Below, piece after piece: positions 14,211-42,697 of a DNA stretch of 42,697 nt. The position numbers and the translations under genes are program-made. The notes below the pieces were generated by a model. The model was given only the letters and a program-made list of their open reading frames with translations, had not been told where the DNA came from and ran no database searches. Source of the stretch: a virus; IMG/VR virus record IMGVR_UViG_3300047357_001545, positions 1 to 42,697 of that record; one strand, given 5' to 3'. The stretch's first letter is position 1. Each line of letters opens with the position of its first letter.

Positions 14211-14246
14211 CTGGTTTTCTTATTGAGAGAGCCAGCCTTTTTTTTT
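14204..14246 (+). terminator. Rho-independent terminator
   Basis: AAAAAGGCTGG (14204-14214) pairs with CCAGCCTTTTT (14232-14242), followed by more T. It ends the first tRNA group or attenuates entry into the 14324 gene. Confidence 0.8.
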
Positions 14247-14323
14247 ATTTTTTCTCCTCCTTACTTGGTAGAGTGCTATTTGTGTAGGGCGTTCCTACAC
14301 ATTACACACACAGGAGAATGGTA

Positions 14324-14530
14324 ATGGGAGACAGCGTAAGAAACGGTTATGAGATTAGGGAATCTCTCTTGGAAATGGCGATCAACATTCTACAAGAGAG
14401 GGTGAGCCAAGAGCGTGAGAATGAGTACCTTAAGCCAGAAGGTACTCGTCAACCCGTTCAAGGCTTTGACGTTAATGATGTTATCAAGGTTGCTCACACG
14501 CTTGACTCTTTTGTCAGTCGAAAAAATTAA
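14324..14530 (+). CDS. Conserved-looking small phage protein, 68 aa
   Basis: ATG at 14324 fits AGGAGA (14312-14317) better than the ATG at 14318, which would touch it. The product contains RNGYEIRESLLEMAINILQERV and FDVNDVIKVAHTLDSFV, similar to a small uncharacterised protein widespread in T4-like myophages. Function unknown. A 7-bp hairpin (GTGTAGG/CCTACAC, 14282-14300) lies in the leader. Confidence 0.7.
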   Translation: MGDSVRNGYEIRESLLEMAINILQERVSQERENEYLKPEGTRQPVQGFDVNDVIKVAHTLDSFVSRKN

Positions 14531-14576
14531 GTGATAATAATTTGCGTGACCACTCTTCATATAGATAATAAGAGAT

Positions 14577-14729
14577 GGGCGTATAGCTTAGTTTGACAGG
14601 TGACTGTGATACAGTTTATCTGAGAGCACTGTTAAGTCGGTACTACCGATTAGGTTAAAGTCTGACCAATACTAGTCAGGGTCAGGTCACTTTCCGCAGG
14701 AGGGTCGGGTTTAAACCCCGATACGCTTT
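14577..14729 (+). ncRNA. Atypical ~153-nt tRNA-like RNA
   Basis: The ends look like a tRNA: GGGCGTA (14577-14583) can pair with TACGCTT (14722-14728; two G-U), and a T-arm TCGGG-TTTAAAC-CCCGA is at 14705-14721. TAGCTTAGTTT resembles a D-arm start. The interior is twice the normal length and contains hairpins AGTCG-GTACTAC-CGATT (14635-14651) and CTGAC/GTCAG (around 14662-14679). The anticodon is uncertain (candidates include GAT near 14608 and ACT at 14642-14644). It may be an inserted or decayed tRNA, or a distinct tRNA-like ncRNA. Confidence 0.5.
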
Positions 14730-14736
14730 CTAATAA

Positions 14737-14808
14737 GGTCCCATCGTCTAGGGGTTAGGACATCGGCCTTTCACGCCGAGAACGCGGGTTCAAATCCCGC
14801 TGGGATCA
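14737..14808 (+). tRNA. tRNA-Glu (TTC)
   Basis: Acceptor GGTCCCA/TGGGATC plus A, D-arm GTCTAGGGGTTAGGAC, anticodon stem TCGGC/GCCGA with loop CTTTCAC, T-arm GCGGGTTCAAATCCCGC. CCA not encoded. Confidence 0.96.
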
Positions 14809-14920
14809 CTATGTGTGCCTTCACGCAGGCTTGTTGCAACAGGTAAGTCAAGGTTTAGACCTTGACAGGGGCTGGTGGTTGATACACCTTTCCATTGAAA
14901 CAAAGAATTAAGGTGTCTTA
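14809..14920 (+). other. Structured spacer between tRNA-Glu and tRNA-Lys
   Basis: No gene or full tRNA. Two perfect 7-bp hairpins: GTCAAGG-TTTAGA-CCTTGAC (14847-14866) and ACACCTT/AAGGTGT (14884-14890 with 14910-14916). The first is T-arm sized, so a decayed tRNA is possible. Confidence 0.4.
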
Positions 14921-14993
14921 GGGTCGTTAGCTCAATTGGTAGAGCAGTAGACTTTTAATCTATTGGTTCTGGGTTCGAGTCCCAGACGACCCA
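14921..14993 (+). tRNA. tRNA-Lys (TTT)
   Basis: Acceptor GGGTCGT/ACGACCC plus A, D-arm GCTCAATTGGTAGAGC, anticodon stem GTAGA/TCTAT with loop CTTTTAA, T-arm CTGGGTTCGAGTCCCAG. CCA not encoded. Confidence 0.97.
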
Positions 14994-15000
14994 CTCTTAA

Positions 15001-17602: not shown

Positions 17603-17650
17603 AAAGCGTCCTCTTAACTCCAGCTTCGGAAGTTAAGAGGACGCTTTTGT
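17603..17650 (+). terminator. Rho-independent terminator with a 17-bp stem
   Basis: AAAGCGTCCTCTTAACT pairs perfectly with AGTTAAGAGGACGCTTT around an 11-base loop, then TTTTG. The symmetric A/T flanks could let it act in both directions. Confidence 0.85.
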
Positions 17651-27698: not shown

Positions 27699-29212
27699 TG
27701 TAACTCCCCATCTAAAATCTTATCTAGGGCATCTCCTTTCGGGGCTTGTTTTGGCCTAGCGGAAGATTGAAACTGCAACGGCATATCTAAAGTTCTTCCC
27801 GCAGGCCAATTGATCTGAGCTTCAAAGTTCTCGAAAGGAGCTTGATCTCTAGACTTCAGGCATTGGTAGAGAACCTGAGACTTCTCCCTCTGGTCATCAC
27901 CGAACCAAGAGCAGATAACTACGTCCGCAGACCTCTCCGCCTCATTTGCATAAGACAAGTGAGTTAGATTGTACTTCCCACCATTCTTTTCCGCCGCCTT
28001 AAATCCTTCACGACTGATTTGGAATAGGCAAAGAACGGGTATGCCTTCTCCTCGGTTGAAACCTAGAGACATCTTTTTTAAGTCTCGTATCACCTCATTC
28101 AGACGCTCTGTAGTAGAAGCAACCCACCTTCTTGAGGAGACGAGTAGGGCATGGTCTACCACAAGCATTTTGAAAGGTTCTGATTGTGCTATGGCCTCTG
28201 CTCTAGTTCTGATGTCTTCGACAGTGGTGTCCATTACATTAGGGTCAGCTACTTCAAACCGAAGTGACCCGTACTTTCCTTCTTTTACGCCATCGTGAAG
28301 GTCTTTGGTGACTTCTTTGAGGAACTCAACCTCATCTTCAGAAAGTGTCCCTTCCCTGATCTTTTTTGGGTCTATACAGGCATCTGTCTGACCTGCTTGG
28401 AGTCCTAATGCTATCCTCTTTGCTCTAAACTTAGGGTGCATAGAGTGATACACATAGATCATTCTCCGACATTGGGGGTAGTGCATCTCTAGGGAGAAGT
28501 AGAGCGTACTTGTCCCTCCATATATTGCTTGGTTGTATGCCCAATTAAGTGAGGTCGTAGACTTAAGGTGTCCTGTGTAAGCCGCGAGGATGTAGAGTTC
28601 TTTCTTTTTGAATCCTCCGAGAGCGTTGTCGATCACCGAGTGTCCTGTGATAGGTCTAACATCTAGCTCTCGGTGTTTAGCTTTCTCGAATTCCTCCCAG
28701 AAGTCCTCTTCGTCCACCATCGCGTCCCCTCCGATTCTTGAACCGAAGGTCGGGGTATTGATCTTTGAGATCTGAGTAAGGAGGTGATTGCTCGCATCTC
28801 TGGCACCCTTAAGGAGCTTCTTTATTCTCCCGTCTTTGACTTCAAGGCCAGACCTTGCGATGGTCTTAGCATCCGAGAGAGCTGAAGCAAGAGACATAAC
28901 CCGTGCCTCTTCTACGGTCTTCTCGATGAGTGAGATGAAGTCGCCTCTGTAAGACACACTCTTAGTGCTGATTTGTTGAATGCGATCAGCCTCATCAAAG
29001 TTTTGACCTTGCTCGAAATGGTCGTGGATGCTCTTCAGATTTGGGAGGTGTCCGTGTCTCTGGGTGAACTCGCGGATATACTCATAGATGTTTACCTCTG
29101 AAGGTATATCAAACTTGAAGATTGACTCTCTCAGAGCGAGGTAGTTCTGATACATCAAGTTAGTGTCGTCTCCGCTTGATGTAGATGGGATAATGCTTCT
29201 CAGTAGACTCAT
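27695..29212 (-). CDS. DnaB-like replicative helicase, 505 aa
   Basis: The RecA-fold helicase domain starts ~residue 180: ITGHSVIDNALGGFKKKELYILAAYTGHLKST (Walker A variant, TGHLKST), TLYFSLEMHYPQC (motif H1a), LVVDHALL (Walker B), LCLFQISREG and HLSYANEAERSADVVI (motifs H3/H4). The N-terminal ~170 residues are a helical domain that would contact primase/loader. It would unwind DNA at the phage fork. ATGA overlaps with genes on both sides. Confidence 0.88.
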   Translation of the reverse strand: MSLLRSIIPSTSSGDDTNLMYQNYLALRESIFKFDIPSEVNIYEYIREFTQRHGHLPNLKSIHDHFEQGQNFDEADRIQQISTKSVSYRGDFISLIEKTVEEARVMSLASALSDAKTIARSGLEVKDGRIKKLLKGARDASNHLLTQISKINTPTFGSRIGGDAMVDEEDFWEEFEKAKHRELDVRPITGHSVIDNALGGFKKKELYILAAYTGHLKSTTSLNWAYNQAIYGGTSTLYFSLEMHYPQCRRMIYVYHSMHPKFRAKRIALGLQAGQTDACIDPKKIREGTLSEDEVEFLKEVTKDLHDGVKEGKYGSLRFEVADPNVMDTTVEDIRTRAEAIAQSEPFKMLVVDHALLVSSRRWVASTTERLNEVIRDLKKMSLGFNRGEGIPVLCLFQISREGFKAAEKNGGKYNLTHLSYANEAERSADVVICSWFGDDQREKSQVLYQCLKSRDQAPFENFEAQINWPAGRTLDMPLQFQSSARPKQAPKGDALDKILDGELQ

Positions 29213-29907
29213 AATTTAATCCTCTTGTGTGATCCGATATTCGAGGTCACTTTTCCTGTTTCTGTGGCATTGCTTCTCCTCATGACTTTGGTCTCAATCC
29301 TGACTCTAGACCATCCTTGAATCATTTCCTGAAGGGTAGAACTCCAGCTTAAGTGACCCTCCTCAAGGGGCTTGGTCGGCTCTTCTACGAGCCATGTTGC
29401 CCTGTTGAGGTGTTCTCTCATCTCAATCGTCTCGACAAGCACCTCTGGCATCGCGGAGTTGCGAGCCATCTTAGTGCCGAGTCTCACAATAAGTAAATGG
29501 GGAGACTCAGCAAGATCCTCTAAGCTATATACTTTAAGGTGTCTTTGGAAGTCAGGGTCTGCCACCGCAAGGCCTTGAGCATGAAGACCGCCCAACCATG
29601 CACTCATGAGCGTGTGGTCTCCTACCACTTTCATAAAGAGGCTTGGGTTTTTGGTGTTAGCGAAGGCTGTTCTCAAGTGTACCCTTAACATATCTCGGTC
29701 TGAGGAGATGAGGAGATTCTGTCTGTCCTTTCCGTCTAGGAGAGAAGACTCCTTCACAGGAACAAGCCCTAAGTTTGACCAAGCCTTCTCCGCCTGCACT
29801 TTCAATGCTTTGTTCAGAACACACTCGCATTGGATTGCTCTCGGCATACCATTAAAGCCGTCGTCTACTTGTATATATCCGAACCCATTACATTTCTCAC
29901 ATATCAT
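29209..29907 (-). CDS. Zinc-binding helicase-loader-like protein, 232 aa
   Basis: AGGAGA fixes ATG at 29907. It begins MICEKCNGFGYIQ ... CEC, a CxxC...CxC zinc site; a DnaC-like plan follows (NLLISSDRDMLRVHLRTAF, FMKVVGDHTLMSAWLGG, LVEEP, ETVEMREHLNRATWLV). Walker A cannot be seen, so it may be a degenerate loader. The position directly before the helicase gene supports this. Confidence 0.5.
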   Translation of the reverse strand: MICEKCNGFGYIQVDDGFNGMPRAIQCECVLNKALKVQAEKAWSNLGLVPVKESSLLDGKDRQNLLISSDRDMLRVHLRTAFANTKNPSLFMKVVGDHTLMSAWLGGLHAQGLAVADPDFQRHLKVYSLEDLAESPHLLIVRLGTKMARNSAMPEVLVETIEMREHLNRATWLVEEPTKPLEEGHLSWSSTLQEMIQGWSRVRIETKVMRRSNATETGKVTSNIGSHKRIKL

Positions 29908-29972
29908 TAATTTTTCTCCTGTCTTGTATTCCTCTATATTATAATAAAGGGACGCGAGACAGAGGGAATAAA

Positions 29973-30047
29973 ATGACATATGCGAAACTTAGAGAGTGCG
30001 GGCTTTGCTTAGGTGTGCCTCCCTTCAACTGTAAACTATATATTTAA
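29973..30047 (+). CDS. 24-aa cysteine-containing peptide (possible)
   Basis: AGAGGG eight bases before ATG at 29973. Sequence contains ECGLC and FNCK. It is the leader of the RecD-like gene, starting between the divergent loader and that gene. It could be a small zinc peptide or leader peptide. Not supported by any homologue I know. Confidence 0.35.
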   Translation: MTYAKLRECGLCLGVPPFNCKLYI

Positions 30048-30079
30048 CGAGTTAAGAAAACACTACAAAGGGATAACTA

Positions 30080-32149
30080 ATGTATCACTCAGCAAAAGTA
30101 CTAGGGCAGATCTTTGCCAATCCACCATACTATATCCTCAGATGCCTTGTCGCATCTGAGGTAGGTTCAGAAACAATCGTGGTCAAAGGTAATGTGCCTG
30201 GTCCTGTTGACCGAGGCTCCGTATTCACCTTTCAAGGTAAAAGGAAGCAGGACAAGAATGGCAAGATGATCTTTAATGTGGTTAAGAGTCCTGTGAACCC
30301 AAAATGGCTGAAAGGTACAGCTCTGACAAGTTGGTCTGAGTGGACATCTGCATCTATGACTGAATCGGTCGCTTTGCTTGGTGACCTAATGGACTCAGGT
30401 GTATCTGTCCACGTACTGAATGAACTCTGGAAAGAGATCTCCCAGAACCCGAAGTTCTTACGGGAGAATCCTTGGATCTTAGTGGAGTCAGGCGTTTCTT
30501 TTAAGGATGTGGATGCTATAGCAAGATCTATCTTAGTCTCTGACTTCGACAGGAAGAACCCGCACAGAGTGGAGGCTTGTGTTTATTGGTCGCTATCTCA
30601 AGGTTTCTTGAATGGCCACTGCTTCCTTAATGCAGACACCGTTTTCCGAGATGTCTCTCTCTTGACAGGCATTACCGATCCTTCTGAGATCAAGTCGGCA
30701 ATCTCGAATATGATGTTAGCGAAGAGACCTAGACTAGTTATCGAGAAGATAAGAGGATCTAACGCGGTCTACTTGCCTCCTTATCATAGCATGGAGTCTG
30801 GGGTGGCCGAGAGGTTGAAAGAGAAGCTCTCTAGGGATTTGGCGGGGGATGTCTCAGAAGAGACCATTCGATCATACACAAGGTACGAGCTTACAGACAC
30901 CCAGATAAAGGCCATTCAACAAGGCATACGAGAGCCACTCTCAATCGTTACAGGGTTGCCAGGTACAGGTAAGACTACGATCCTGTCTACATTATGTAAG
31001 ATCCTTCAAGATGAAGGGGAGGACATCTTGCTGATTGCCCCAACAGGAATAGCGGCGAAGAGAGCCAACTCGCTCACAGGTGTAAAATCCTATACGATCC
31101 ACAGAGCGTTCGGTGCGGGTCAGCCGAGTGCGAAAGAAAAAGAACAGAAGTCCAGCTACGAGGGAGTTCAGCAAGAGGAGGAGAAGCGAGAGAAGAAGCT
31201 GAGTGATCCACGCCTAACTACTTGGAGTTACAATGCTAACAACCCTCGAACAGAATCCGTTGTTATTGTAGACGAGAGCTCAATGGTAGACCTTCACCTG
31301 ATGTGGCGAATAATGAATGGTATTTCAGAGTACTGTAGGGTCATTTTAGTGGGGGATATTGCTCAGCTCCCCCCTGTAGGGGCAGGTTTTATATTATTTG
31401 AGCTTATTAATAGTGGCGTTCCTCGCACGCACCTCACAGAGGTTTTCAGGCAAGGAGAGGGTTCGGGTGTTACAAAGGCGGCTCACGAAGTGCATCGCGG
31501 TATTGTCCCAGAGTCGAACACTGAATTTGAGGTAGTCTCTCTTGACCAAGAAGTTGATGTGCTCTCTACTCTGGTAGAGAAGTGTAAGAGTCTACAGATG
31601 GATGGGGTGGAATTCCATGTGATGAGTCCGACACATCATGGGACTCTTGGGGTGACTAACCTTAATAGGGAACTCCGCTCCGCCCTTAACCCCGACATCG
31701 GAGGGGTGTGTGTTAAGATAGGGAAGAACACTCTCAGAGAGGGAGATCGGGTAATGATCACTAAGAATGACTACGACCTTGAAGTCTTCAATGGAGATGT
31801 TGGCACGATCTCTCGCATTAGCAAGCATCATGTGGAAGTCTCTATAAAGGGCGTTCGGGACTCTCTCATCTCTATACCTAGAGACAGGATAAGTAAGCTC
31901 TTGAGGCTGGCATACGCTACCACTGTGCATAAGAGTCAAGGGCTGGAGTACGAAGTTATCTTCATGCCTTTGTCCTCCAGCCACAGCCCTAACCTTCTGA
32001 AGAGATCCCTGTTGTATACCGCGATCACAAGAGCCAAAGAGAAGGTTTACCTAATAGGTGAACCAGAGGCTCTTGAGGTCTTCGTACACAATAACAAACA
32101 GCATGAAGGATACTGTGGGTTATCTGATAGAGTCAGCCCTAAAATTTAG
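30080..32149 (+). CDS. RecD2-like SF1B DNA helicase, 689 aa
   Basis: AAAGGG precedes the ATG. Motif I VTGLPGTGKTT (~residue 292), motif II VIVDESSMVD, motif III LVGDIAQLPPVGAG, motif IV LTEVFRQ, then YATTVHKSQGLEYEVIFMP and LYTAITRAKEKV at the C-terminus. The ~280-residue front matches the RecD2-type N-terminal domain. 5'-3' DNA unwinding in repair or recombination is expected. Confidence 0.93.
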   Translation: MYHSAKVLGQIFANPPYYILRCLVASEVGSETIVVKGNVPGPVDRGSVFTFQGKRKQDKNGKMIFNVVKSPVNPKWLKGTALTSWSEWTSASMTESVALLGDLMDSGVSVHVLNELWKEISQNPKFLRENPWILVESGVSFKDVDAIARSILVSDFDRKNPHRVEACVYWSLSQGFLNGHCFLNADTVFRDVSLLTGITDPSEIKSAISNMMLAKRPRLVIEKIRGSNAVYLPPYHSMESGVAERLKEKLSRDLAGDVSEETIRSYTRYELTDTQIKAIQQGIREPLSIVTGLPGTGKTTILSTLCKILQDEGEDILLIAPTGIAAKRANSLTGVKSYTIHRAFGAGQPSAKEKEQKSSYEGVQQEEEKREKKLSDPRLTTWSYNANNPRTESVVIVDESSMVDLHLMWRIMNGISEYCRVILVGDIAQLPPVGAGFILFELINSGVPRTHLTEVFRQGEGSGVTKAAHEVHRGIVPESNTEFEVVSLDQEVDVLSTLVEKCKSLQMDGVEFHVMSPTHHGTLGVTNLNRELRSALNPDIGGVCVKIGKNTLREGDRVMITKNDYDLEVFNGDVGTISRISKHHVEVSIKGVRDSLISIPRDRISKLLRLAYATTVHKSQGLEYEVIFMPLSSSHSPNLLKRSLLYTAITRAKEKVYLIGEPEALEVFVHNNKQHEGYCGLSDRVSPKI

Positions 32150-32722
32150 CAGATCCTCTATATCGAAGTCATGTTTAAGCAGATCGAACCTGTAGAACGC
32201 TCTCTTATGTCGAATCGCACTTGATCTGACTAAAAAGGGCGTGAAGTTCTTGGGGTTATTAACTACGGAATAGCCCCCCAAGCCAGCCACATAATATTCA
32301 CTCTTACTGACCTTGACCACAAAGATCTGAGGTTGGTTTAGGTGACTCGGTGATGGGGGCTTCATCAGAGGGAAGTCTTTTACGTTACAAGTTTTAACTC
32401 CGACAGAGTATCCTGCTCTCAATAGATCTGGTTGGTTGTAGTCATATGACTCGCCTATTGTCAGATCCATGAACTTTAACCCCAAGTGTTTCTCTACTAC
32501 TCTCTCACCGCACCATCCTGTCACCCATCTTTTTAGCAAAGATGTTGTGTCCCCAATGTTTTGAGATTCGCCTCCTTTCTTCAGTACGATGCTCTTCGCC
32601 CTTTCCTTAATGGCCTCTAGGTCATTGTTGTCTAAAAGTATTTTCGCGAATTGCTCTTCGTAAGGTTGGACGTAGTAGTTGTAAGATGCCTCACACCCCT
32701 GCCCTATGAGTTCCATTTCCAT
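32120..32722 (-). CDS. PD-(D/E)XK-like nuclease candidate, 200 aa
   Basis: AAAGGG precedes ATG at 32722. The core LLKRWVTGWCGERVVEKHLG is the family's helix with the active-site Glu, followed by YDYNQPDLLRAGYSVGVKTC (PD...xVKT, the D-x-K pattern). The C-terminal half is beta-rich. A restriction-like or recombination nuclease is plausible. It overlaps the RecD gene end by 30 bp. Confidence 0.5.
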   Translation of the reverse strand: MEMELIGQGCEASYNYYVQPYEEQFAKILLDNNDLEAIKERAKSIVLKKGGESQNIGDTTSLLKRWVTGWCGERVVEKHLGLKFMDLTIGESYDYNQPDLLRAGYSVGVKTCNVKDFPLMKPPSPSHLNQPQIFVVKVSKSEYYVAGLGGYSVVNNPKNFTPFLVRSSAIRHKRAFYRFDLLKHDFDIEDLLNFRADSIR

Positions 32723-32765
32723 CTTGTATCCCTTTTATAGGCTCATCGTATATTGAGGAGCTTAT

Positions 32766-33188
32766 ATGATATTTAGACGAGATGGAATAATATTCCTGCA
32801 CCTTGAAGACCCTGTGTGGGGCGAGGTCAAGATAGGCAAGATTCTTCCAAGCTCTACGAGTTGGGGAGTCTTCGAGTCTGTTTCTTTGAGAGAGGAAGCT
32901 CTCCTCATCCCTCAAGTGGCAGACCCTATCCTCGATAGGGCTACGCGAGGTGACTGCACCCCTTTCATGAACTCTGGTGTTCGCGACCCTAAAGGTTGCC
33001 TAAAGAAGATTTCCTCGCCCAAAGAGTGTAGTGAGAGATATTTTTGCATCTCGTATGACTCCAAAAATTGCCAGATGGGGAATCGGAAGATGCCGAGTTG
33101 CTTCAGCCCCGTCTCCGACGAAAACTTCAGACCGATAGTCACAGCTTGGCTAGAGGGCTACTATGTAATTCGAGAGGAAGACTTGTAA
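32766..33188 (+). CDS. Hypothetical protein, 140 aa
   Basis: GAGGAG precedes the ATG. Seven cysteines or so in a short basic protein (TRGDCTPFMN, PKGCLKK, PKECSERYFC, SKNCQMG, PSCFSP). The spaced cysteines suggest a metal site or disulfides. No family recognised. Overlaps the protease start by one base. Confidence 0.55.
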   Translation: MIFRRDGIIFLHLEDPVWGEVKIGKILPSSTSWGVFESVSLREEALLIPQVADPILDRATRGDCTPFMNSGVRDPKGCLKKISSPKECSERYFCISYDSKNCQMGNRKMPSCFSPVSDENFRPIVTAWLEGYYVIREEDL

Positions 33189-33826
33189 TGAGAGCCAACA
33201 GAAGAATTTATGAGGGCGAGAACTCCCCTACTTCACGTCAGCCTATGGCCACAGACGGATCTCCTTATTATGGGGATATTACAGTTTGTGAGAACCATAT
33301 TTACCTTTATCAAGCGATCACACCTAAGTCTATCATGGACATGGGTATTGCTATTAGGTCAGTCGGCCAGCAGATCATTAATCTTATGACCGACCTCAGC
33401 CTCCCTAGTGTCCCAGCTATCCATCTTCACATCAACTCTCCTGGCGGGTGTGTCTTTAGTGGTCTCGCGGGAGCGAGTCATATACTAGAGTCTGAAGTAC
33501 CCGTTTTTACTTATGTGGAAGGTTCTGCCGCGTCCGCCGCGACTGTCTTGTCTTGCGTGGGGGCTCGAAGGCATATCACAGAACACAGCTTCATGCTTAT
33601 CCACCAAGTAAGCACGGGTGTCTGGGGTACTTACGAGAATCTCTCTGACGAAAAGGAGTCTATGGACTCTTTGATGGAGATGCTAGAGTCTATTTACCTC
33701 AAGCACACAAACATCAAAAAGAAAGAGCTTAAGTCACTCCTTAAGAGAGATCTATACATGAACCCTAAGAAGTGTCTTGATTTCGGCCTAGTTGATGAGG
33801 TCATCAAATATGAGAGGGGTGTGTAA
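33188..33826 (+). CDS. clpP-like: ClpP-like serine protease
   Basis: 212 aa. Start is the ATG overlapping the preceding stop, with GAGGAAG upstream. Landmarks: IHLHINSPGG (oxyanion Gly-Gly strand), GSAASAATVL (nucleophile Ser), FMLIHQVSTG (His) and RDLYMNP ... CLDFGLVDEVI (C-terminal helix pair). The catalytic Asp171 position is uncertain here. Phage ClpP-like proteins are prohead proteases or ATP-dependent proteases; no capsid gene is adjacent to decide. Confidence 0.85.
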   Translation: MRANRRIYEGENSPTSRQPMATDGSPYYGDITVCENHIYLYQAITPKSIMDMGIAIRSVGQQIINLMTDLSLPSVPAIHLHINSPGGCVFSGLAGASHILESEVPVFTYVEGSAASAATVLSCVGARRHITEHSFMLIHQVSTGVWGTYENLSDEKESMDSLMEMLESIYLKHTNIKKKELKSLLKRDLYMNPKKCLDFGLVDEVIKYERGV

Positions 33827-33853
33827 CTACGAGCCTCGAATAGCAGGGCATCA

Positions 33854-34459
33854 TCAAGGCTCGACTCGAATCATAGCCTTGTTATGCCAATAGGCTTCTG
33901 ATATCGTGAGGAGATCCAAAAAATCTTCTTCGGTGTAGTTTGTAGGTGTCCCGCCGTCGAGTCCATAGTAGTTCGCTTTTAAAGCGTATGGTTGGATTGG
34001 GGGGAATGCGTTGTTGGTATCGGGATACGCATTAATTGAGACGAGTTCCCAATTCGCGTCGTCTATAGGAAGCTCATTACTCCCTGTTAAGGCTAGTGCT
34101 TTTGAGTTGTAGAAGATAAGCTCTACTGCCTTCGCACTCGGCTTCTGGGTTCGGATTACCTCGCGGTAGGGTCGAGGCAATTCCCCCTCTACTCTCGACC
34201 TGAACCCCTCAAGTACTTCTTCTCCCTCTTCGACAATGGCGACTCCGCTGAAGAAGTGCTCATTGTATTCAGAAGGGAGTGTGGCAACAATGGCTCGACC
34301 TCCACTATCATAGTTATCTGGCTCATAACCATCTCGGATTGAGGTCGCGACCCGAAGTAGCTCAGCGACTTTTTCATGTTCGAGAGTTGAGTGGCTGAGA
34401 GGGGAATCTGGGGTGTGTCTCCGTGAGAAGACGTTAACTGCCGTTTCTTTAATATTCAT
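33854..34459 (-). CDS. DUF3228-like protein, 201 aa
   Basis: ATG at 34459 with AAGGAT upstream. AKAVELIFYNSKAL, WELVSINAYPD, PPIQPYALKANYYGLDGGTPTNYTEEDFLDLL resemble the uncharacterised DUF3228 family. Function unknown. Confidence 0.55.
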   Translation of the reverse strand: MNIKETAVNVFSRRHTPDSPLSHSTLEHEKVAELLRVATSIRDGYEPDNYDSGGRAIVATLPSEYNEHFFSGVAIVEEGEEVLEGFRSRVEGELPRPYREVIRTQKPSAKAVELIFYNSKALALTGSNELPIDDANWELVSINAYPDTNNAFPPIQPYALKANYYGLDGGTPTNYTEEDFLDLLTISEAYWHNKAMIRVEP

Positions 34460-34595
34460 GTTAATCCTTGTTCGTGTTTCACACTTTGTAAACAATCGTA
34501 TGCATGGTCCAATAGACCCAATAAGACCACTTACTTATAAGATCTGAGTTCCGTTTTCTTTTATTTTCTCATTCCTTTGATAACGATCTTCTTAT

Positions 34596-34611
34596 ACTGT
34601 TGTCCAACAGT
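34596..34611. promoter_or_regulatory. Palindrome ACTGTTG-TC-CAACAGT overlapping a TATACT box
   Basis: A 7-bp perfect palindrome lies 43-28 bases before the NUDIX start; TATACT begins at 34594 and overlaps it. The position suits a repressor operator. CTGT-N6-ACAG resembles but does not match the LexA spacing (N8). Confidence 0.4.
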
Positions 34612-34638
34612 GATGACTCGAACAAAGGAGAAAAAAGA

Positions 34639-35037
34639 ATGGAGACATACGATATGGGAGCTGGGATTATGGTTGTGTGCGGTAAGAAGACCCTTGTTTT
34701 AAAAAGGGCTCATTACAAGGAAGACCCTTTCTCTGGGTATTGGGACTTTCCAGGAGGTACTTCGGAGAAAGATGAAAGTGCTTATGAGACAGCAATTAGA
34801 GAGACAGAAGAGGAGATAGGGATATCAGTTCCCTTCATAAGAGTCTCAGACCACACTGAGAGCAGGTTCTACACTATGTTCATAGGCGAGGTTGGAATGG
34901 AGTTTAAGCCTCGCCTAGACCGTGAACACAGTGATTATATGTGGATTTCAATTCCAGAGGTGCTCGAACTAGAGCTTCACCCTAAAGACAGGAGGTGCTT
35001 TGAGAAATACTTGAAGAGGAAGGTTCACCACACTTGA
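34639..35037 (+). CDS. NUDIX hydrolase
   Basis: 132 aa. AAAGGAG fixes ATG at 34639. The NUDIX box is complete: GGTSEKDESAYETAIRETEEEIG (GX5EX7REUXEEXGU). It hydrolyses a nucleoside diphosphate linked to another moiety; substrate unknown. Could sanitise nucleotides or decap RNA. Converges with the next gene (13-bp overlap). Confidence 0.92.
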   Translation: METYDMGAGIMVVCGKKTLVLKRAHYKEDPFSGYWDFPGGTSEKDESAYETAIRETEEEIGISVPFIRVSDHTESRFYTMFIGEVGMEFKPRLDREHSDYMWISIPEVLELELHPKDRRCFEKYLKRKVHHT

Positions 35038-36113
35038 AAGTGGACTCCCAGAGACCAAGTGTTGCCCCCCTCTTTATCTATGACCCACCCTAGACTTGGT
35101 GCGATGTTGAGATTCTTACCCGCGATTCTAGGGTGCCATGTTACATTCGCCCCGAGATAGGGGGTGTCTTCAGTTAAAACAAGGTTTGCTCCTATTCTGT
35201 AGTCACCCTTATAGAAGTTCACAAAGCTCCCCCCCACAGACAGCCCAAAGCCCCCTCCTTGATATGTAGACCCGACCAAGAGACTCGGCTCGAATAAACT
35301 CAAGCCAAGTCGCTCTCTTCCAGCATCTACTTTCGGTACGTATTTCAATCTGGGGTCGAGGTTACTGTCGCCTCTGAGGAGTTTACTCTCTAATCCAGGT
35401 ATAGGGATAAAACCCCCTTTAGGGCTGATGTATCCTGCCATGACGTGAACGCCTTGATTTTGAACGGCTCCGTCTCCAAGGCGATCCCCTTCTCTGAAGG
35501 TCATCGCAACTACCTTGAAAGCTAGATTAAGAGAGACCTTGCCTCGCTTTTCCCATAGGTTCTCACTAGAGAACGTATAGATAGGTCTGCCGTTTATGGA
35601 GAATGGGGATTCCCATGTGAACTGAAATGGCTCACATCTCTCTGGGTGGTCTTCGCATTTGTGTTGGTCGTCACGGGTGACACCTTTCCAGCTTTCAGGA
35701 GGCTTAGGTTTAGGCTCTCTTGCCCTAGTTGTCCTACTCCCGATCCTTGCGGTACCTTTATCTAAATCCCCTTCCATCTTAACGAATCTCTCACTGATAT
35801 CATCTATACGAGCTCCTGTCTTACCCATATAACTTCTTATGGAGGATTGAGTTTTCTCGCTTAGACCCCCTATGATTTCGTCCGCAAAGCTGTCGAGTTC
35901 TGATCTTTTGACCATCTTAGACGTTATTGTCCCAACGCTCTCATTCAGAGATGCGATATCTTGAGCGGTCTTCGCGAGCTTCCCACTTAGTTGCTCCTGT
36001 ATAGTACTCTCCATCTTTGTGGTCTTGTACACAGTCCAAGCGTTGCCTCCTACGGACAACATGAAAAAGCTCAGAAGTCCGTATGTTACATAGTTAAAAC
36101 TTAATTCTGGCAT
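35025..36113 (-). CDS. Inner-membrane-anchored coiled-coil protein with beta-rich C-terminus, 362 aa
   Basis: AAGGAG precedes the ATG. N-terminal membrane helix (YVTYGLLSFFMLSVGGNAWTVY), long coiled coil (~35-125), a Pro/Lys linker (REPKPKPPES), then a C-terminal ~210-residue domain with amphipathic strands (GYISPKGGFIPIPG, YQGGGFGLSVGGSFVNFY, RIGANLVL, YLGANVTWHP, TWSLGVHFQVW) ending in an aromatic residue, as in outer-membrane barrels. It may span the envelope. Function is inferred only. Confidence 0.55.
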   Translation of the reverse strand: MPELSFNYVTYGLLSFFMLSVGGNAWTVYKTTKMESTIQEQLSGKLAKTAQDIASLNESVGTITSKMVKRSELDSFADEIIGGLSEKTQSSIRSYMGKTGARIDDISERFVKMEGDLDKGTARIGSRTTRAREPKPKPPESWKGVTRDDQHKCEDHPERCEPFQFTWESPFSINGRPIYTFSSENLWEKRGKVSLNLAFKVVAMTFREGDRLGDGAVQNQGVHVMAGYISPKGGFIPIPGLESKLLRGDSNLDPRLKYVPKVDAGRERLGLSLFEPSLLVGSTYQGGGFGLSVGGSFVNFYKGDYRIGANLVLTEDTPYLGANVTWHPRIAGKNLNIAPSLGWVIDKEGGNTWSLGVHFQVW

Positions 36114-36178
36114 TGTCGATCTCCTTAATAACTTTTTTATCGTACACTGCAGGTGACTATAACAGAAAGAGGTGTGAT

Positions 36179-36853
36179 ATGAATAGAAAGTTAGCCGTAC
36201 AAAGAGTTGTGAGGAGGCATAAAGTCGCCTCTTTCAATAGTTTGGTTGCGGGTGCTTTGAAGAAACACAAAAAAGAAGCGTCCGTTATCAAGAGTGCGAT
36301 CCGCGAAGTTGGTCTAGCTAATGTAGTCAAGCAGGCCAAGAACCGTAAGGTCATAAGGTCGAGAGACATCGTCTTAGATAAAATCTCTTCCAAGCCCCAT
36401 AAGAACCAATTCAATCAGCTCGTTGATATTTTTGAAAACAGAGAAGAGATTGCGAGAGGTCTCTTAAATGAGGATACACTAAGTAAAAAAGCCAGCTTTT
36501 TGACTTTCCTTGGGGCACCCGCTTGGCTGATTAAGACATTAGCTTGGCTCACGGCGTCCACCTTCGGCTTTGCTGTCCTAGTTATTGCTTGTATTTGTAT
36601 TTTTGGAATGGGCTACATTTTTTTCCTTATAATTGCGGATTCTTTGCCGTCAGTCTTTGCCTCCTTCTTAGGGTTTGTTTTCATCAAGTTCCCGCTATTT
36701 ATCTTCAAAGCGGTGCTCACACCTGTGAAGTTCTTGTATGAATTGACCTCCAAGCTTGAAGATAAGATTCAAGAAGAGCAAAGTGTTAACTTCGAGGATC
36801 TTGAAAGTCCTAGTGACCGAGAAGAGATAGAACGGTTTCGCAGATCAAGGTGA
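36179..36853 (+). CDS. Membrane protein, 224 aa
   Basis: ATG at 36179 with AAAGAGG upstream. Basic helical N-terminus (~1-100, MNRKLAVQRVVRRHKVASF), two to three membrane helices (FGFAVLVIACICIFGMGYIFFLII and PSVFASFLGFVFIKFPLFIF), an acidic tail. Same plan (helical front, membrane helices, short charged tail) as the 22437-23069 protein. Unknown function. Confidence 0.6.
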   Translation: MNRKLAVQRVVRRHKVASFNSLVAGALKKHKKEASVIKSAIREVGLANVVKQAKNRKVIRSRDIVLDKISSKPHKNQFNQLVDIFENREEIARGLLNEDTLSKKASFLTFLGAPAWLIKTLAWLTASTFGFAVLVIACICIFGMGYIFFLIIADSLPSVFASFLGFVFIKFPLFIFKAVLTPVKFLYELTSKLEDKIQEEQSVNFEDLESPSDREEIERFRRSR

Positions 36854-36921
36854 CAAGTTTATATTAATGTCTGGGCTGTAATCTATAAGAGAGGGATAAC
36901 AAACCGACATTAAGGAAACAC

Positions 36922-39519
36922 ATGTTTACAGATATGCTTGAAGGACTCCGCAGGCCAAAGATTGAGCCTAAAGAGTGGATGAGTGATTGCGAACTCATCT
37001 TGGGGACGACAGATAACCTTGAGGGGTGCATCGAGGAATGCATTAATTCAGACTTCTATGGTCTTGATGTGGAAACAACGGGCTTAGATCAGAGGGTCTT
37101 TGACGGGGTTACCAAAGATAAGATCGTAGGCATCTGCCTAGCTCCAAGCAAGGACAAGGGCTATTATTTCCCTTTAACTCACAGTGAGGGGTCAAGTCAC
37201 AATATTTCTTGGAGACTCATGGGTGGTGCATTAAAGAGGCTCTTTGATGTGTCTGTTAAAGCACAGCCTGTCTTACAGAATGCAGGTTTTGACATGGAGT
37301 TCCTTGAGTTTAACGGCTACGTTGACGCTCTTGGTGCGGAGAGGTGGAATACTCCTCGACTATGGCATGATACTAAGATCTTGAAGTACTTGCTAAACCC
37401 TAGAGAAAAGGGCGGACGTGGTCTGAAGCAGATGTCAAAAGGGATACTCAAGAGGGAGATGATTGAGTTAGAAGACCTCATCCCAAAGAGCAACGTGAAA
37501 GATTACTCTAAGTTAGATCCTAGTTGGTCAGCTTGTGTTTTATATGCCGCAGCTGACGCTATGAACACTGTGGGTATTTTTGAAATACTCAACAAAGAAT
37601 ACACGGAGGCGGTGCATCATTCTTCTTTCATCTATACACTTGAAAAGAAAGTCCTAGTAGCTACTCGATGGATGATGAGAAACAGAGTCTACGTCGATAG
37701 GAAGAGAGCCCTTACCTTCTGTCAGGAGGGGCAAAAGTTATGGTTTAATTCTCTTCTTGAGGTCTACGGCGGTGCAAATGATATCTTGGGTCGTGACATT
37801 ACACCGAACTACCTCCGTATTCTTAAGGGTGAGATCAAAGGTGTTAACTTGTTTGACCCTATGGAAGTAGAAGGCATGAGTTACAAGACTCGAGTAGATG
37901 AGGCGAGAAAGGAAGCTCTTCGCAACTACCCTGATTCTCAAGTGAAGATCCGTAAAGAAGTCCCTCGCTTGAGTTCAGACCCAAGAAGGAAAGCAGAAGG
38001 GCTAGAGGACATTGAATTCCCCTCAGTTTATGACATCTTAAGCCCCCAGCAACTAGGTCTTCTTTTCAGAGAGATGAGTGTTCCAGGTCTAACCGTTACG
38101 GAGAAATCTGGGCAGGTCGCAACAGCTAGGGACATTCTCGAATCTGTAGTAGAGAACGCATCCAAAGACTTCCCTTTCATGGGGAAGATAAAGTCCTTCC
38201 GAAATCTAGCTAAAGCTCTTGGTCAATACCTGATTCCTTTTGTCGAGGATGTAGGTATTGACGGGACTCTGAAGCCTAAGTTTGACCAGATGTCTGCTGA
38301 TACGGGCAGGTTTTCTTGTAAGACAAACAAACAGCCTTGGAAAGTGAGAGATGGCGGATGCCGAGTTCCTTTTCAGGGTATCCCAGCTACCTATGACAAG
38401 AGTAAGCCTGACTGCATTAGACTTATGAGGGACTGCATCACAGTACGCGATAAAGACTTCTGGCTCGCCGCCGTTGACTATGCGGGCGTGGAGCTTAGGC
38501 TTGTGACCAACTTGAGCAGAGAACCCAAATGGGTCAACGCATTCTACTCCTGTAGTGACTGTGGCAAGGCTTATGATATGACAGAGGGTGAAGATGGGTT
38601 TCCTCTGCCCCCTCCGTCAATCTGCACCTGCGGGTCAGATAAGATCGGGGATCTCCATACAGGTACGGCAGTCGCCTTCTATGGCGATAGTGCAAAGCAG
38701 AGAGAGGATTGGAAGGTTCTGCGAGGCAACGGTAAAGCGTGTAACTTCGCCCTTTGTTATGGAGGCACAGGGAAGGCAGTACAGCGATCTATCGGTTGTG
38801 GTGCGAAAGAGGGAGACGAGAAGTACCGAGTCTTCACAAAGACATATTCGGGTCTCATCAGATGGTGGAAGCGTCAACATGAGTTTGCGAGAGCTCATGG
38901 TTATGTGAAAACTGCAATGGGTAGAATACAGCCACTCCCTGATATCAAGTCTGACGAGTACCGCTTCAAGTCGAAAGATGAACGCAAGGCTCTCAACGGA
39001 CCTATTCAAGGAACATCTGCAGACGTAACTAAGCTGGCTATGGCACTAATCTATGACAAGGTTCTTGAGATGGGTTGGCAAAAGAAACTCCTTATGATCC
39101 TCACAGTGCATGACGAGATTGTTTTTGAGATCCACAAGGACATCCTCAAAGAAGCCATTGAAGTCATCTCTAACCTGATGACCAAGAACACAGTCATTCA
39201 AAAGATGAATTGGCCTATCCCTCTCCTCGTCGATGTGGAACTCGGTAAGACTTGGACTGTCCCTTATGATCTCAAAGACATCGAGCAGGGAGAGGGCGAC
39301 GATGAGTTGGTCAAAATCTTTGGGGGGCAGAAGCCTATTGAGGTAGAGAAACCGAAAGAGGAGGTCGCAGACCTACCCCCCATCGAAGTCTTCCAAGTGT
39401 CGGCTTTAGATCCAGAAACTGTGGAGAGGCTGGCACAGTGGATCAAGTCTAGGAAAGTATTGAGGGAAGAATGGGATGTACAGCATGAGGGTCGGTCTAT
39501 TAAAGCCCTTTTGGTTTAA
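36922..39519 (+). CDS. polA-like: Family A DNA polymerase with 3'-5' exonuclease domain
   Basis: 865 aa. Exonuclease DVETTGLD near residue 52; polymerase motif A DYAGVELR (~519), motif B RGNGKACNFALCYGG (Lys605, Phe609), motif C TVHDEIV (His730-Asp731-Glu732). Inserted after motif A is CSDCGK ... ICTCG (Cys 544, 547, 568, 570), a zinc-ribbon-like insertion of ~30 residues before DLHTGTA. The last ~80 residues form a charged tail after the catalytic core. A diverged second copy of this tail occurs at 41093-41318. Confidence 0.95.
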   Translation: MFTDMLEGLRRPKIEPKEWMSDCELILGTTDNLEGCIEECINSDFYGLDVETTGLDQRVFDGVTKDKIVGICLAPSKDKGYYFPLTHSEGSSHNISWRLMGGALKRLFDVSVKAQPVLQNAGFDMEFLEFNGYVDALGAERWNTPRLWHDTKILKYLLNPREKGGRGLKQMSKGILKREMIELEDLIPKSNVKDYSKLDPSWSACVLYAAADAMNTVGIFEILNKEYTEAVHHSSFIYTLEKKVLVATRWMMRNRVYVDRKRALTFCQEGQKLWFNSLLEVYGGANDILGRDITPNYLRILKGEIKGVNLFDPMEVEGMSYKTRVDEARKEALRNYPDSQVKIRKEVPRLSSDPRRKAEGLEDIEFPSVYDILSPQQLGLLFREMSVPGLTVTEKSGQVATARDILESVVENASKDFPFMGKIKSFRNLAKALGQYLIPFVEDVGIDGTLKPKFDQMSADTGRFSCKTNKQPWKVRDGGCRVPFQGIPATYDKSKPDCIRLMRDCITVRDKDFWLAAVDYAGVELRLVTNLSREPKWVNAFYSCSDCGKAYDMTEGEDGFPLPPPSICTCGSDKIGDLHTGTAVAFYGDSAKQREDWKVLRGNGKACNFALCYGGTGKAVQRSIGCGAKEGDEKYRVFTKTYSGLIRWWKRQHEFARAHGYVKTAMGRIQPLPDIKSDEYRFKSKDERKALNGPIQGTSADVTKLAMALIYDKVLEMGWQKKLLMILTVHDEIVFEIHKDILKEAIEVISNLMTKNTVIQKMNWPIPLLVDVELGKTWTVPYDLKDIEQGEGDDELVKIFGGQKPIEVEKPKEEVADLPPIEVFQVSALDPETVERLAQWIKSRKVLREEWDVQHEGRSIKALLV

Positions 39520-39544
39520 TCACCATTAAAGAATCAGGGCTCTC

Positions 39545-39634
39545 TTAGAAACGCGGTTCCCACAAAAAGGGTCTGCCTTCCTTCAGATCTCTCACGGCCT
39601 TCTTCTTGGGTTTATTAGTGTTGAACGCCGACAA
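39545..39634 (-). CDS. Possible 29-aa basic peptide overlapping the topoisomerase end
   Basis: In a different frame from the topoisomerase 3' end a reading (SAFNTNKPKKKAVRDLKEGR then PFLWEPRF) looks protein-like. It starts from TTG at 39634 with only AAAAGG 12+ bases upstream. It could be a short gene or the relic of a longer topoisomerase C-terminus after a frameshift. Confidence 0.25.
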   Translation of the reverse strand: MSAFNTNKPKKKAVRDLKEGRPFLWEPRF

Positions 39635-41027
39635 GGTGACTAGGAAAGTGCCTTTTCCTGAGACGCTTAGGTTTCATCCAAGCACTAGCCTTTTTGGAAG
39701 GCCTCATCTTTTCGGCCTCTCTGACGAACATGAGTGGGTCGAACTCTAGCTTTGTCTTTCCTTTAAGGACGTAATCTCTGAAGGGACTCTCTACCTTCGC
39801 TGTACTCAAGAACCTAAGTAGGACTTGAGGGTTGATGTAAGCGTCTTGTGTAGTAGAGGAGTCCATATGGCTGAGGGCGGCCTGAGCTTTCTCATGGGCG
39901 AGGTTAATCGTCTCCACAACTTCTTGAATGACAAGTTGCTTGAGTTTCTCAACTTCGGGTTCTGCGATCTCTCTTATTCTTGCGTAGAGGGCGTCTTTCT
40001 CTTCTTGCAAGGAGTCGAACACCGCTCGGGTTGCCTTGAGCTTTCTGAGATCCGTGACCTTGAAGCCTTTGAAGTTCTTATTGAAGTATGCTGATAGATG
40101 TTTGTAATCAAACTGCTCACCGCTCGACGTGGTGAATATGTACTTAGACCCTCTGGTGAAGGCGTTATCTATATACCCTTGCAAGATAGATAGGACGTGC
40201 CTGTCTCTAATGTTAGCGATGTTTGTCCCGCCTTTCTTGCCCACAAAGTTGAGCACCGCGAAGTCTTCTCTTATGAAGCGGACGTGTTCAGAGTTGAGGG
40301 ACACTGCACCGAAGGTTTCTACTTCAACTTCTTTATCTTCCATGACACGTATTGTATGGTTGCCTATCTTGCCAGGTCGTATACCTGTCTCCATGATTAT
40401 CGAGGTGATAAGGGCGGCCAGCTTCGTAATCTCATCTGGAGACTTCAGGTCTTTCTTTATTTTTTTAACAATGGTGTTGTATTTGAGAATCAGCTTTCTT
40501 TGAACCTTTATCTTCTCTGACAGGTCGTACTTCTCATTCACGAACAGGTCATTTATATTAGTGATGTACTTGTTTTTGTCCGTGTCAATCACAATAGACT
40601 TAGGGAGGAAAGCTTGGATCTCGGCTGGGAATGTGCTTTTGACTTTGTTTTGTCTCTTGCTGAGCTCCACTACACTGAAAGACTCTTGAGCTATAGGGTA
40701 AAACAGAGTTGAGGCATCTTTCAGGGTGACTCTGTTAAGCAAGTAAGAGGCGAAGATCTTCACGGTCTCTCGCCTCCTTTTTTTCGACTTAGGATTTGCT
40801 TCTTTATCTCCGATGAACTGATCCATAAATTGGGCAACCTGAGGATCAGAGTCTAGGAGTCGAACAAGGAATTTGTATCTCTTATCCAAAGAAGCCCTAT
40901 CTCTTCGAGGGTACTCCTCCTTCGCCTTAAGTCTGTGCTTAAAGACCTTGCGTGCGACCGCCCTAAAAGACGCGGTGGCTTTTCTCTCAAAGGCGAGTAG
41001 CTTCTTCTCTTTTATGTCTTTTTTCAT
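39615..41027 (-). CDS. Type IB DNA topoisomerase
   Basis: 470 aa from ATG at 41027, which has AGAGAGG seven bases upstream (a TTG at 41060 is rejected). The catalytic core reads METGIRPG (active Arg), FGAVSLNSEHV, LNFVGKKG (active Lys), LSAYFNKNFKGFKVTDLRKLKATRAV (Arg/Lys strand) and, 74 residues from the end, SSTTQDAYINPQVL with the nucleophile Tyr (~397). This matches eukaryote/poxvirus/bacterial TopIB, not integrases. N-terminal ~110 residues are basic and helical. It would relax supercoils ahead of the fork. Confidence 0.85.
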   Translation of the reverse strand: MKKDIKEKKLLAFERKATASFRAVARKVFKHRLKAKEEYPRRDRASLDKRYKFLVRLLDSDPQVAQFMDQFIGDKEANPKSKKRRRETVKIFASYLLNRVTLKDASTLFYPIAQESFSVVELSKRQNKVKSTFPAEIQAFLPKSIVIDTDKNKYITNINDLFVNEKYDLSEKIKVQRKLILKYNTIVKKIKKDLKSPDEITKLAALITSIIMETGIRPGKIGNHTIRVMEDKEVEVETFGAVSLNSEHVRFIREDFAVLNFVGKKGGTNIANIRDRHVLSILQGYIDNAFTRGSKYIFTTSSGEQFDYKHLSAYFNKNFKGFKVTDLRKLKATRAVFDSLQEEKDALYARIREIAEPEVEKLKQLVIQEVVETINLAHEKAQAALSHMDSSTTQDAYINPQVLLRFLSTAKVESPFRDYVLKGKTKLEFDPLMFVREAEKMRPSKKASAWMKPKRLRKRHFPSHLVGVQH

Positions 41028-41028
41028 A

Positions 41029-41060
41029 TTGAAACCTCTCTGTTTTGAGAAAGGTTTCAA
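41029..41060 (-). promoter_or_regulatory. Hairpin overlapping the topoisomerase ribosome site
   Basis: TTGAAACCT (41029-41037) pairs with AGGTTTCAA (41052-41060), extended by CTC/GAG inside. On the minus-strand RNA it contains the AGAGAGG of the topoisomerase gene. Same theme as the hairpins at 17040 and 18243. Confidence 0.55.
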
Positions 41061-41064
41061 TATA

Positions 41065-41099
41065 TCAACTATGAACGATCAGGGCGGCGATTGCGACGA
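41065..41099 (-). pseudogene. Fragment of the 42553 membrane-protein gene 3' end
   Basis: On the minus strand it reads LIVAIAALIVHS then TGA, matching LVAIAAAIVHS-TGA at 42553-42587 with several base differences. It ends abruptly at the shared GCGACGA (41093-41099), beyond which the sequence is polymerase tail. Confidence 0.75.
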
Positions 41100-41318
41100 T
41101 GAGTTGGTCAAAATCTTTGGGGGGGGGAGAAGCCTATTGAGGTAGAGAAACCGAAAGAGGAAGTTGTAGAACAGCCTCACATCGAAGTCTATCAAGTATC
41201 GGTTTTAGACCCTAACACTGTGGAGGAGTTGGTGCAATGGATCAAGTCTAGGAAAGTATTGAGAGAAGAATGGAATGTACAGCATGAGGGTCGGTCTATC
41301 AAATCCCTTTTGGTTTAG
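41093..41318 (+). pseudogene. Diverged second copy of the DNA polymerase 3' end, frameshifted
   Basis: Matches 39296-39519 at most bases (EVEKPKEEV, WIKSRKVLREEW and VQHEGRSIK are kept). A G-run of 9 (6 in polymerase, with a C lost) breaks the frame near the start; downstream the old frame is open to TAG. Amino-acid changes are scattered (VADLPPIEV vs VEQPHIEVY-type). It has no start and is not part of a gene. Looks like an imported allele rather than a fresh copy. Confidence 0.85.
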
Positions 41319-41346
41319 CAATTGTCCATAGCTAAACCAAAAGGGA
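41304..41346. terminator. 16-bp inverted repeat at the end of the polymerase-tail copy
   Basis: TCCCTTTTGGTTTAGC (41304-41319) pairs perfectly with GCTAAACCAAAAGGGA (41331-41346) over an 11-base loop. It lies between the tail copy and the converging methyltransferase, where it may end minus-strand transcripts or mark a recombination junction. There is no clear T-run. Confidence 0.6.
41318..41331 (+). repeat. Left 14-bp inverted repeat of the methyltransferase interval
   Basis: GCAATTGTCCATAG here is the exact reverse complement of 42557-42570 (CTATGGACAATTGC), inside the tail of the membrane-protein gene. Together they bracket the methyltransferase gene (1253 bp). Confidence 0.7.
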
Positions 41347-41348
41347 GA

Positions 41349-42551
41349 CTAATAGAGTATAGGTGAGGGGCTAATTCTCAATGACTTTTCATAAGCTGTA
41401 AGGAGATCCTCTCGAACTTGTTTGTCTGCTAAAGGTATAGCTTTGCGAAGGGCTTTTCTGCCAACCTCTCTAGCTGCATTGATGTAGTCGGAGATATGTA
41501 TTTTTTTTATACTGAAGCGGAGGATCTCTTCATAAATTTTATCTCCAAATTTGTTTTGAAAAACCCTGTGCTGTTGACCGACTAATTCAAAGCCACATAT
41601 AGTTGCTACTTCTGAGATCAACTCCGCGTTCTTGAAAGCAGTCTTTCTAACATTAGACTCACGCCCAACAATGAATATTAACTTCGCATCAGGTTTGCAG
41701 ACTCGCCTGAGCTCAATAAAAACTTGGGAAATATCCATGCAGTATTGAACAACTGTTAAAAACCTGTTTTGACGAAATTTTCTATTGGCTCCAATCTCAG
41801 ACTTGGCTACTTTCAATATGTCAGCACCGATAAGCTCAACTGCTTTTCTGTAGTTTTGATGGTAATTAAAGACATTTATATAAGGGGGGGATGTTACGAC
41901 AAAGTCAATGGTTCCACCCTTTAATGGGACGCAGCGAGAGTCTCGGTTGTAGCACTTTAGTTTCTTATTAGACAAGGGGAGCTTTTGAATATTGGAGCGT
42001 AGTGTACCCCAAACATTGTTAATTCTCTTTATGTTTAACTTTTTTGCTTTAAAGTCCATTCCTGTGATTAGTGCTGTTAGGATGGTACTTCGTACTTTGC
42101 TATCTGATTTCTCAAGAGCTTCAATCAATACAACTTGAAAGGCAGACAGATCGCCATGATCCAAGAGAGAAGGGTCGTTAGTATAATCAGATACTAAGTG
42201 CTCTACATAGGCAATCGCCTGAGCAACTTCTTCCTTGGGGTGGTTGATCAGTTCGTATACGCTTGCAAAAGATACGGCGGCAGGGTTAATCTCACATCCG
42301 TAGGCTTCTAATCCCAGCATCGCGGCTTCCATGAGGACGGTTCCGCTTCCTAAGAAGGGGTCGAACACTACGTCATTTTCGGACGAGTAGCAGGTCAATA
42401 GCAACTCGATGAGTTGAGGTGAGAATTGACCTCGCCAACTGAACAAATTGCTGCGGGTTTTGTTGTTAAGATTGACACTTGCTTGAGTTAATGAATCCTC
42501 AAGGCTTTTGTTTTTAAACTTCATCGACATACGTTTCAAGCCTGTATTCAT
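41349..42551 (-). CDS. DNA methyltransferase (TSPPY type, orphan)
   Basis: About 400 aa. ATG at 42551 is nominal; a TTG at 42566 is also open, and neither has a good ribosome site. Motif I is FDPFLGSGTVLMEA with CEIN after it; motif IV is VVTSPPYINVFNYHQNY; the front FSWRGQFSPQLIELLL is typical of restriction-type N4-cytosine/N6-adenine methylases. Motif order (I before IV) differs from the 9.4-11.3 kb enzyme. No restriction nuclease is adjacent, so host-restriction evasion is likely. The interval looks AT-richer than the flanks. Confidence 0.85.
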   Translation of the reverse strand: MNTGLKRMSMKFKNKSLEDSLTQASVNLNNKTRSNLFSWRGQFSPQLIELLLTCYSSENDVVFDPFLGSGTVLMEAAMLGLEAYGCEINPAAVSFASVYELINHPKEEVAQAIAYVEHLVSDYTNDPSLLDHGDLSAFQVVLIEALEKSDSKVRSTILTALITGMDFKAKKLNIKRINNVWGTLRSNIQKLPLSNKKLKCYNRDSRCVPLKGGTIDFVVTSPPYINVFNYHQNYRKAVELIGADILKVAKSEIGANRKFRQNRFLTVVQYCMDISQVFIELRRVCKPDAKLIFIVGRESNVRKTAFKNAELISEVATICGFELVGQQHRVFQNKFGDKIYEEILRFSIKKIHISDYINAAREVGRKALRKAIPLADKQVREDLLTAYEKSLRISPSPILY

Positions 42552-42552
42552 T

Positions 42553-42696
42553 TCAACTATGGACAATTGCGGCGGCGATTGCGACGAGACAGAGAGCGAG
42601 TATGCCCTTCCAATTGAACCCGTAATACCAAGTATTCAGTGCGAGATCAATGGTGATGCTACACATGCCCCAGATGACTCCTGCTTTCCATACGTC
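42553..42696 (-). CDS. Membrane protein C-terminus (partial, runs off the right edge)
   Basis: Open from the right edge to TGA at 42553. It reads DVWKAGVIWGMCSITIDL then ALNTWYYGFNWKGILALCLVA and ends IAAAIVHS, two likely membrane helices. It overlaps the methyltransferase start. The last 12 codons are repeated in diverged form at 41065-41099. Confidence 0.65.
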   Translation of the reverse strand, partial: DVWKAGVIWGMCSITIDLALNTWYYGFNWKGILALCLVAIAAAIVHS

Positions 42697-42697
42697 A

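Follow-up and report, generated by a model that had tools for sequence, protein, structure and literature searches.

Probable insertion of a methyltransferase-carrying segment from a diverged relative behind the DNA polymerase gene of a jumbo phage

The stretch of DNA analysed here (the window) is a 42,697-bp linear IMG/VR record. Compared with a close relative, IMGVR_UViG_3300009079_002893 (L003), which is 99.0% identical to positions 28911-41099, it carries an additional 1,488 bp (41100-42587). The comparison points to the insertion of this segment from a diverged relative into an L003-like jumbo phage, a reading that is probable and that accounts for two sets of duplicated gene tails, their divergence and the return of L003-type sequence behind the insert. 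The event would have kept three resident genes intact, namely a polymerase gene (pol), a TopIB-like gene and a membrane gene (mem), and would have added a DNA methyltransferase gene, with a scrap of a second polymerase gene as a passenger. The window itself very probably represents part of a jumbo phage genome, because relatives of its mem and pol genes sit in contigs of up to 312, 376 and 619 kb. The features of the locus are as follows.

36922-39519, plus strand: family A DNA polymerase gene (pol), 865 aa (PF00476, E 1.5e-63; PF01612, E 5.5e-8), 99.5% identical to that of L003
39296-39518, plus strand: intact 3′ end of pol, inside 36922-39519 (pol tail copy 1)
39615-41027, minus strand: TopIB-like gene, 470 aa, with a Topoisom_I catalytic core (PF01028, E 9e-12)
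41062-41099: 3′ tail of mem, recipient (L003-type) allele, ending at GCGACGA; identical to L003 12150-12187
41093-41099: novel joint GCGACGA, 7 nt common to mem (42581) and pol (39296)
41093-41317, plus strand: pol tail copy 2, the frameshifted 3′ remnant of a diverged pol allele; 87% identical to copy 1, dN/dS 0.23, P(neutral) 0.018
41100-42587: insert relative to L003, 1,488 bp, made of pol tail copy 2, the methyltransferase gene and a replacement mem tail; L003 and the window agree as far as 41099 and once more from 42571/42581 onward
41304-41346: hairpin with a 16-bp perfect stem and an 11-nt loop (fold z -7.6/-8.0)
41349-42551, minus strand: orphan N6/N4-type DNA methyltransferase gene (PF01555, E 4e-21), assigned by homology to a Bpu10I-type restriction-modification family
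42550-42570, minus strand: replacement mem 3′ end, diverged allele, with 6 mismatches against 41062-41082
42571-42697, minus strand: body of mem as far as the contig end (127 nt), with no difference from L003

Elsewhere in the window, a five-tRNA cluster (Met, Arg, Arg, Glu, Lys) occupies 13631-14994, and positions 109-885, which lie in an ORF at 2-1138 (minus strand), are internally repetitive with many direct repeats of 75-95% identity.

The insert, its borders and the relative that lacks it

In L003, the gene order is pol-TopIB-mem: TopIB passes straight into an intact 110-aa mem gene, and the mem tail that matches window positions 41062-41099 runs on into that gene. A first-pass annotation of the window had proposed that two phages with different cargo between the same genes were joined in tandem, and it had predicted the forms pol-TopIB-mem and pol-methyltransferase-mem among relatives. 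L003 supplies the first of these. The second, the donor form, was not found in IMG/VR by searches with pol and with the methyltransferase, each also in the form of an alignment, and with the joint, though collections may lack it; a pattern search for the donor form with the pol end likewise gave no match, and its pattern would miss L003 too, where the codons differ.

Sequence comparison recovered both duplicated tails that had been described. The pol tails (39296-39518 and 41093-41317) are 87% identical over 225 columns (E 6e-68) and exact over their first 32 nt (39296-39327 and 41093-41124). The mem-tail copy is short, about 38 nt, with 32 of 38 positions identical between 41062-41099 and 42550-42587 and the final 17 nt exact. 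As claimed, GCGACGA stands at 39296, 41093 and 42581, and the copies meet there. This 7-mer is not rare in the window (six occurrences on the plus strand, one on the minus strand); the pair of adjoining gene-tail copies, unlike GCGACGA itself, is far beyond chance. At 41093-41099, ancestry changes abruptly from mem on the left to pol on the right with only 7 nt common to both, and a relative without this joint exists (L003). The membrane gene described as intact is in fact cut by the contig end, leaving only its last ~47 codons in the window, and mem has no family match in Pfam, NCBIfam or PHROGs.

The joint is known from this one contig, with no second copy in IMG/VR, as it would be if coexisting TopIB and methyltransferase phages had been artificially joined during library preparation or assembly. 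The contig also ends exactly 127 nt into the mem sequence common to L003, and 127 is the largest k at which metaSPAdes is run for JGI assemblies (PMC11584781). If the window's own sample was assembled by JGI with that setting, the assembly graph probably branched at the contig end, and an L003-like form probably coexisted in the same sample, because the end falls one largest k into common sequence. However, the 7 nt at the joint are far below any k, which makes a repeat-driven misjoin impossible and requires reads that carry the joint; an artefact could arise here only from chimeric fragments. Similarly, the 32-nt repeat at the start of the pol tails could swap the tail that follows it but not create a mem-to-pol joint. 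We consider an artificial chimera quite unlikely.

Origin of the segment and its route of entry

The second pol tail carries the evidence for a foreign origin. Between the two tails, 26 of 177 compared sites differ (13 synonymous and 13 nonsynonymous), corresponding to a dN/dS of about 0.23, and neutral simulation reaches that many synonymous changes in 1.8% of runs. The divergence of copy 2 from copy 1 is about 13%, against about 1% between the window and L003, a contig without the insert; together with the selected appearance of the differences, this argues that copy 2 came from a diverged relative. Judging by its substitution pattern, copy 2 most likely diverged under purifying selection as part of a working pol in another lineage, which argues against neutral self-duplication. 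Because copy 2 is frameshifted (G9 in place of G6-C), it cannot form a working pol end. The idea of two related phages is therefore upheld for copy 2, by the 13% against 1% and the dN/dS of 0.23; it fails for TopIB as one of two cargoes, TopIB being by the distribution of its homologues a core clade gene of variable position. The description of gene exchange caught in the act is too strong as well, copy 2 already being out of frame, and the insertion seems no older than roughly the split between the window and L003.

These values bear on an intragenomic tandem duplication of the block from pol tail through cargo to mem tail, after which the repeat would have decayed and one cargo been replaced. 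The geometry equals that of an unequal exchange at GCGACGA, and the frameshift in copy 2 agrees with decay. Yet a 99%-identical relative has no repeat, the copies would need to diverge by ~13% while the genomes gained ~1%, the substitutions look constrained and not neutral, and the second cargo is unrelated to the first. A tandem duplication is thus exceedingly improbable. It is also very improbable, if slightly less so, that the tandem form is ancestral and that recombination between the mem-tail repeats, with their 17 exact nt, removed the insert from L003. A deletion across these repeats gives exactly the L003 sequence; but in the more distant 312-kb relative G008, too, TopIB comes directly after mem and no insert is present, so that the TopIB-mem adjacency of L003 is ancestral, and at the other pol/mem loci examined neither a pol tail nor a mem tail recurs, the only matches being short and weak.

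The route of entry distinguishes one junction from two. The first-pass annotation had invoked a single illegitimate crossover; in the corresponding scenario, two co-infecting phages recombine unequally once and everything right of 41099 is donor sequence. One event would then explain the joint and would fit a contig that ends 127 nt into mem. Against it, the donor-like alleles differ from their recipient counterparts by 13% in the pol tail and at 6 of 21 positions in the mem tail, yet the next 127 nt of mem are 100% L003, which calls for a second exchange, or else for a donor whose mem body was the same as that of the recipient. The microhomology joint stands, while a single crossover is unlikely; an insertion with two junctions fits better, because mem resumes with recipient-like (L003) sequence.

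In the favoured two-junction insertion, the recipient would have had pol, TopIB and mem in the L003 order, with pol pointing toward TopIB and mem, both of which run the opposite way. The donor, presumably in co-infection, would have been a diverged relative with the methyltransferase gene between pol and mem, an order deduced only from the insert. Its segment would have gone into mem at the 3′ end. At the left border, recipient mem would have joined donor pol at the 7-nt GCGACGA by illegitimate or short-homology annealing; on the right side, where donor and recipient mem have at least 17 nt in common, ordinary homology would have restored the mem reading frame.

Apart from the insert, 8 of the 26 pol differences between the window and L003 lie within 49 nt (39417-39465), and at six consecutive ones (39447-39459) the window agrees with copy 2. 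Gene conversion of copy 1 by copy 2 could have produced this agreement, but L003, rather than the window, is more likely the changed copy there, because the residue K is also found in G008. In the 485-kb phage LR745208.1 (L019 7962-13238), the pol frame spans 1,758 aa and its homologous region is broken into three pieces, which suggests that this pol carries inteins or insertions.

An inverted pol/mem junction in the hairpin

Directly after pol tail copy 2, at the border of pol and the methyltransferase gene, the hairpin at 41304-41346 preserves a second junction. Reverse-complemented, its right part (41318-41346) reads TCCCTTTTGGTTTAG and, with nothing in between, CTATGGACAATTGC, so that a pol end borders directly on a mem end. 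The plus strand of this inverted copy encodes, in frame, AIVHS*, which is the C-terminus of mem in the window. A 14-mer of the hairpin is present only there and in mem, with 0.0003 chance matches expected in the window. The arrangement suggests that the hairpin is the inverted remnant of a cargo-free donor junction at which the stop codons of pol and mem overlapped. Convergent overlapping stops right behind pol occur in the relative G009 (L022), where pol ends at 4098 and the next gene occupies 4095-4481. The pol and mem genes of the donor would accordingly once have lain end to end, their stop codons overlapping, and the inverted remnant would stem from a snap-back template switch that went with the arrival of the methyltransferase gene.

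Today the hairpin may act as a two-way terminator; a terminator consensus scan does not list 41304-41346. That the hairpin arose through TopIB cleavage at CCCTT-like sites was also considered, but no evidence supports it. A second long hairpin in the window (17603-17647) lies between same-strand genes, has a strong stem followed by a T-run and looks like an ordinary terminator.

The methyltransferase and the 3′ flank of pol in relatives

The acquired gene, whose ATG lies just past the mem stop, has its best relatives in bacteria (63% identity in an uncultured Alteromonadaceae genome and 52% in Allomuricauda), and each of these two homologues is directly trailed by a PF09549 RE_Bpu10I gene. Across homologue loci, 71 of 83 have a protein related to the L075 endonuclease (RE_Bpu10I-like) immediately downstream on the same strand; membership in the RE_Bpu10I family was tested for three of the downstream proteins and was positive for all three. 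By this gene neighbourhood, the methyltransferase is assigned to Bpu10I-type restriction-modification pairs. The L075 endonuclease has no match in the window, leaving the phage methyltransferase an orphan. Enzymes of the RE_Bpu10I family cut CTNAG-centred sites (PMC6326814), and the methyltransferase likely protects the phage genome from Bpu10I-family restriction. The window gives no clear signal of CTNAG avoidance (211 sites against 238 expected; 8 against 16 for CCTNAGG). Like orphan phage methyltransferases from Type II restriction-modification systems, it lacks the endonuclease, as expected for restriction evasion; unlike them, it belongs to the family paired with RE_Bpu10I. At 10028-11271 of the window, two further ORFs, of 184 and 229 aa, lie side by side, the start of the second falling on the stop of its neighbour; they match the N- and C-terminal halves of N6_N4_Mtase and appear to be a split or broken second methyltransferase.

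TopIB behaves differently from the cargo. Its relatives (33-61% identity) occur in six jumbo-phage contigs; in G008 it adjoins mem, and in G015 and G018 it lies far from pol. The idea that TopIB serves as the recombinase of a mobile element located at the 3′ end of pol was rejected, TopIB being present in L003 without the insert and core elsewhere in the clade. Nor does the insert, whose only gene is the methyltransferase, contain an integrase or transposase as an integrating or transposable element would; TopIB lies outside it.

The proposal that this is a site of gene exchange is borne out in that relatives differ in the genes they carry in the interval 3′ of pol. Pol and mem are convergent across 2.5-5 kb in L034, L036-L038, L040 and L044, and the intervening genes differ. 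Directly behind pol lies a CcrM-like methyltransferase gene in L031-L033/G008 and an unrelated 412-aa methyltransferase gene in L034, while most other relatives have a conserved cysteine-rich gene there, for which tblastn finds no match in the window or L003. Because both the gene content behind pol and the placement of TopIB differ among relatives, the flank is regarded as variable and TopIB as a core gene that changes its position. Together with that of the window, three unrelated methyltransferases thus occur close behind pol. It is tempting, if doubtful, to extend this to a preferred methyltransferase swap site across the clade, from the 3′ flank of pol to the convergent mem, with the hairpin as the record of a cargo-installing snap-back template switch between convergent genes. 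Among other relatives, several proteins in L050 (8595-8981 and 10314-11204) and L012 (2415-2900 and 11879-12322) that otherwise differ begin with short leaders resembling one another (e.g. MRHLTASQKIAHLESRIARLEKKA), which may be a signal for targeting or processing.

Overall, the locus is ordinary phage mosaicism that is unusually legible. It shares with the mosaicism of tailed phages (PMC2327257) a joint that lacks long homology on one of its sides but has homology on the second, related phages as partners and the preservation of gene function; that work concerns temperate lambdoid phages, whereas here an uncultured jumbo phage holds remnants of both parental alleles in one contig. Both illegitimate and homeologous routes are discussed there, as is RecET recombination at 5-13 bp. 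The stem-loop bordering an exchanged gene also resembles the promoter/stem-loop cassettes (PeSLs) of T4-type modular shuffling, as far as the titles cited in PMC4503421 describe them; the hairpin of the window is unlike these in being built from pol and mem ends, with no shared mobile cassette. Methylases and a tyrosine-type topoisomerase I (TopIB-like) have already been reported in some jumbo phages (PMC7824862), and what is added here is the fossil pol/mem junction in the hairpin and the restriction-modification origin of the methyltransferase cargo. Most mosaic joints of phages are visible just as a border between two ancestries. Here, one place unites the recipient form, the segment from the donor, leftovers of the donor's pol and mem and what appears to be the trace of an earlier stage without cargo, which makes the order of events inferable. 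The gene gained is an orphan member of a Bpu10I-type family, and the locus points to the 3′ flank of pol as a spot at which large phages exchange genes for DNA modification.
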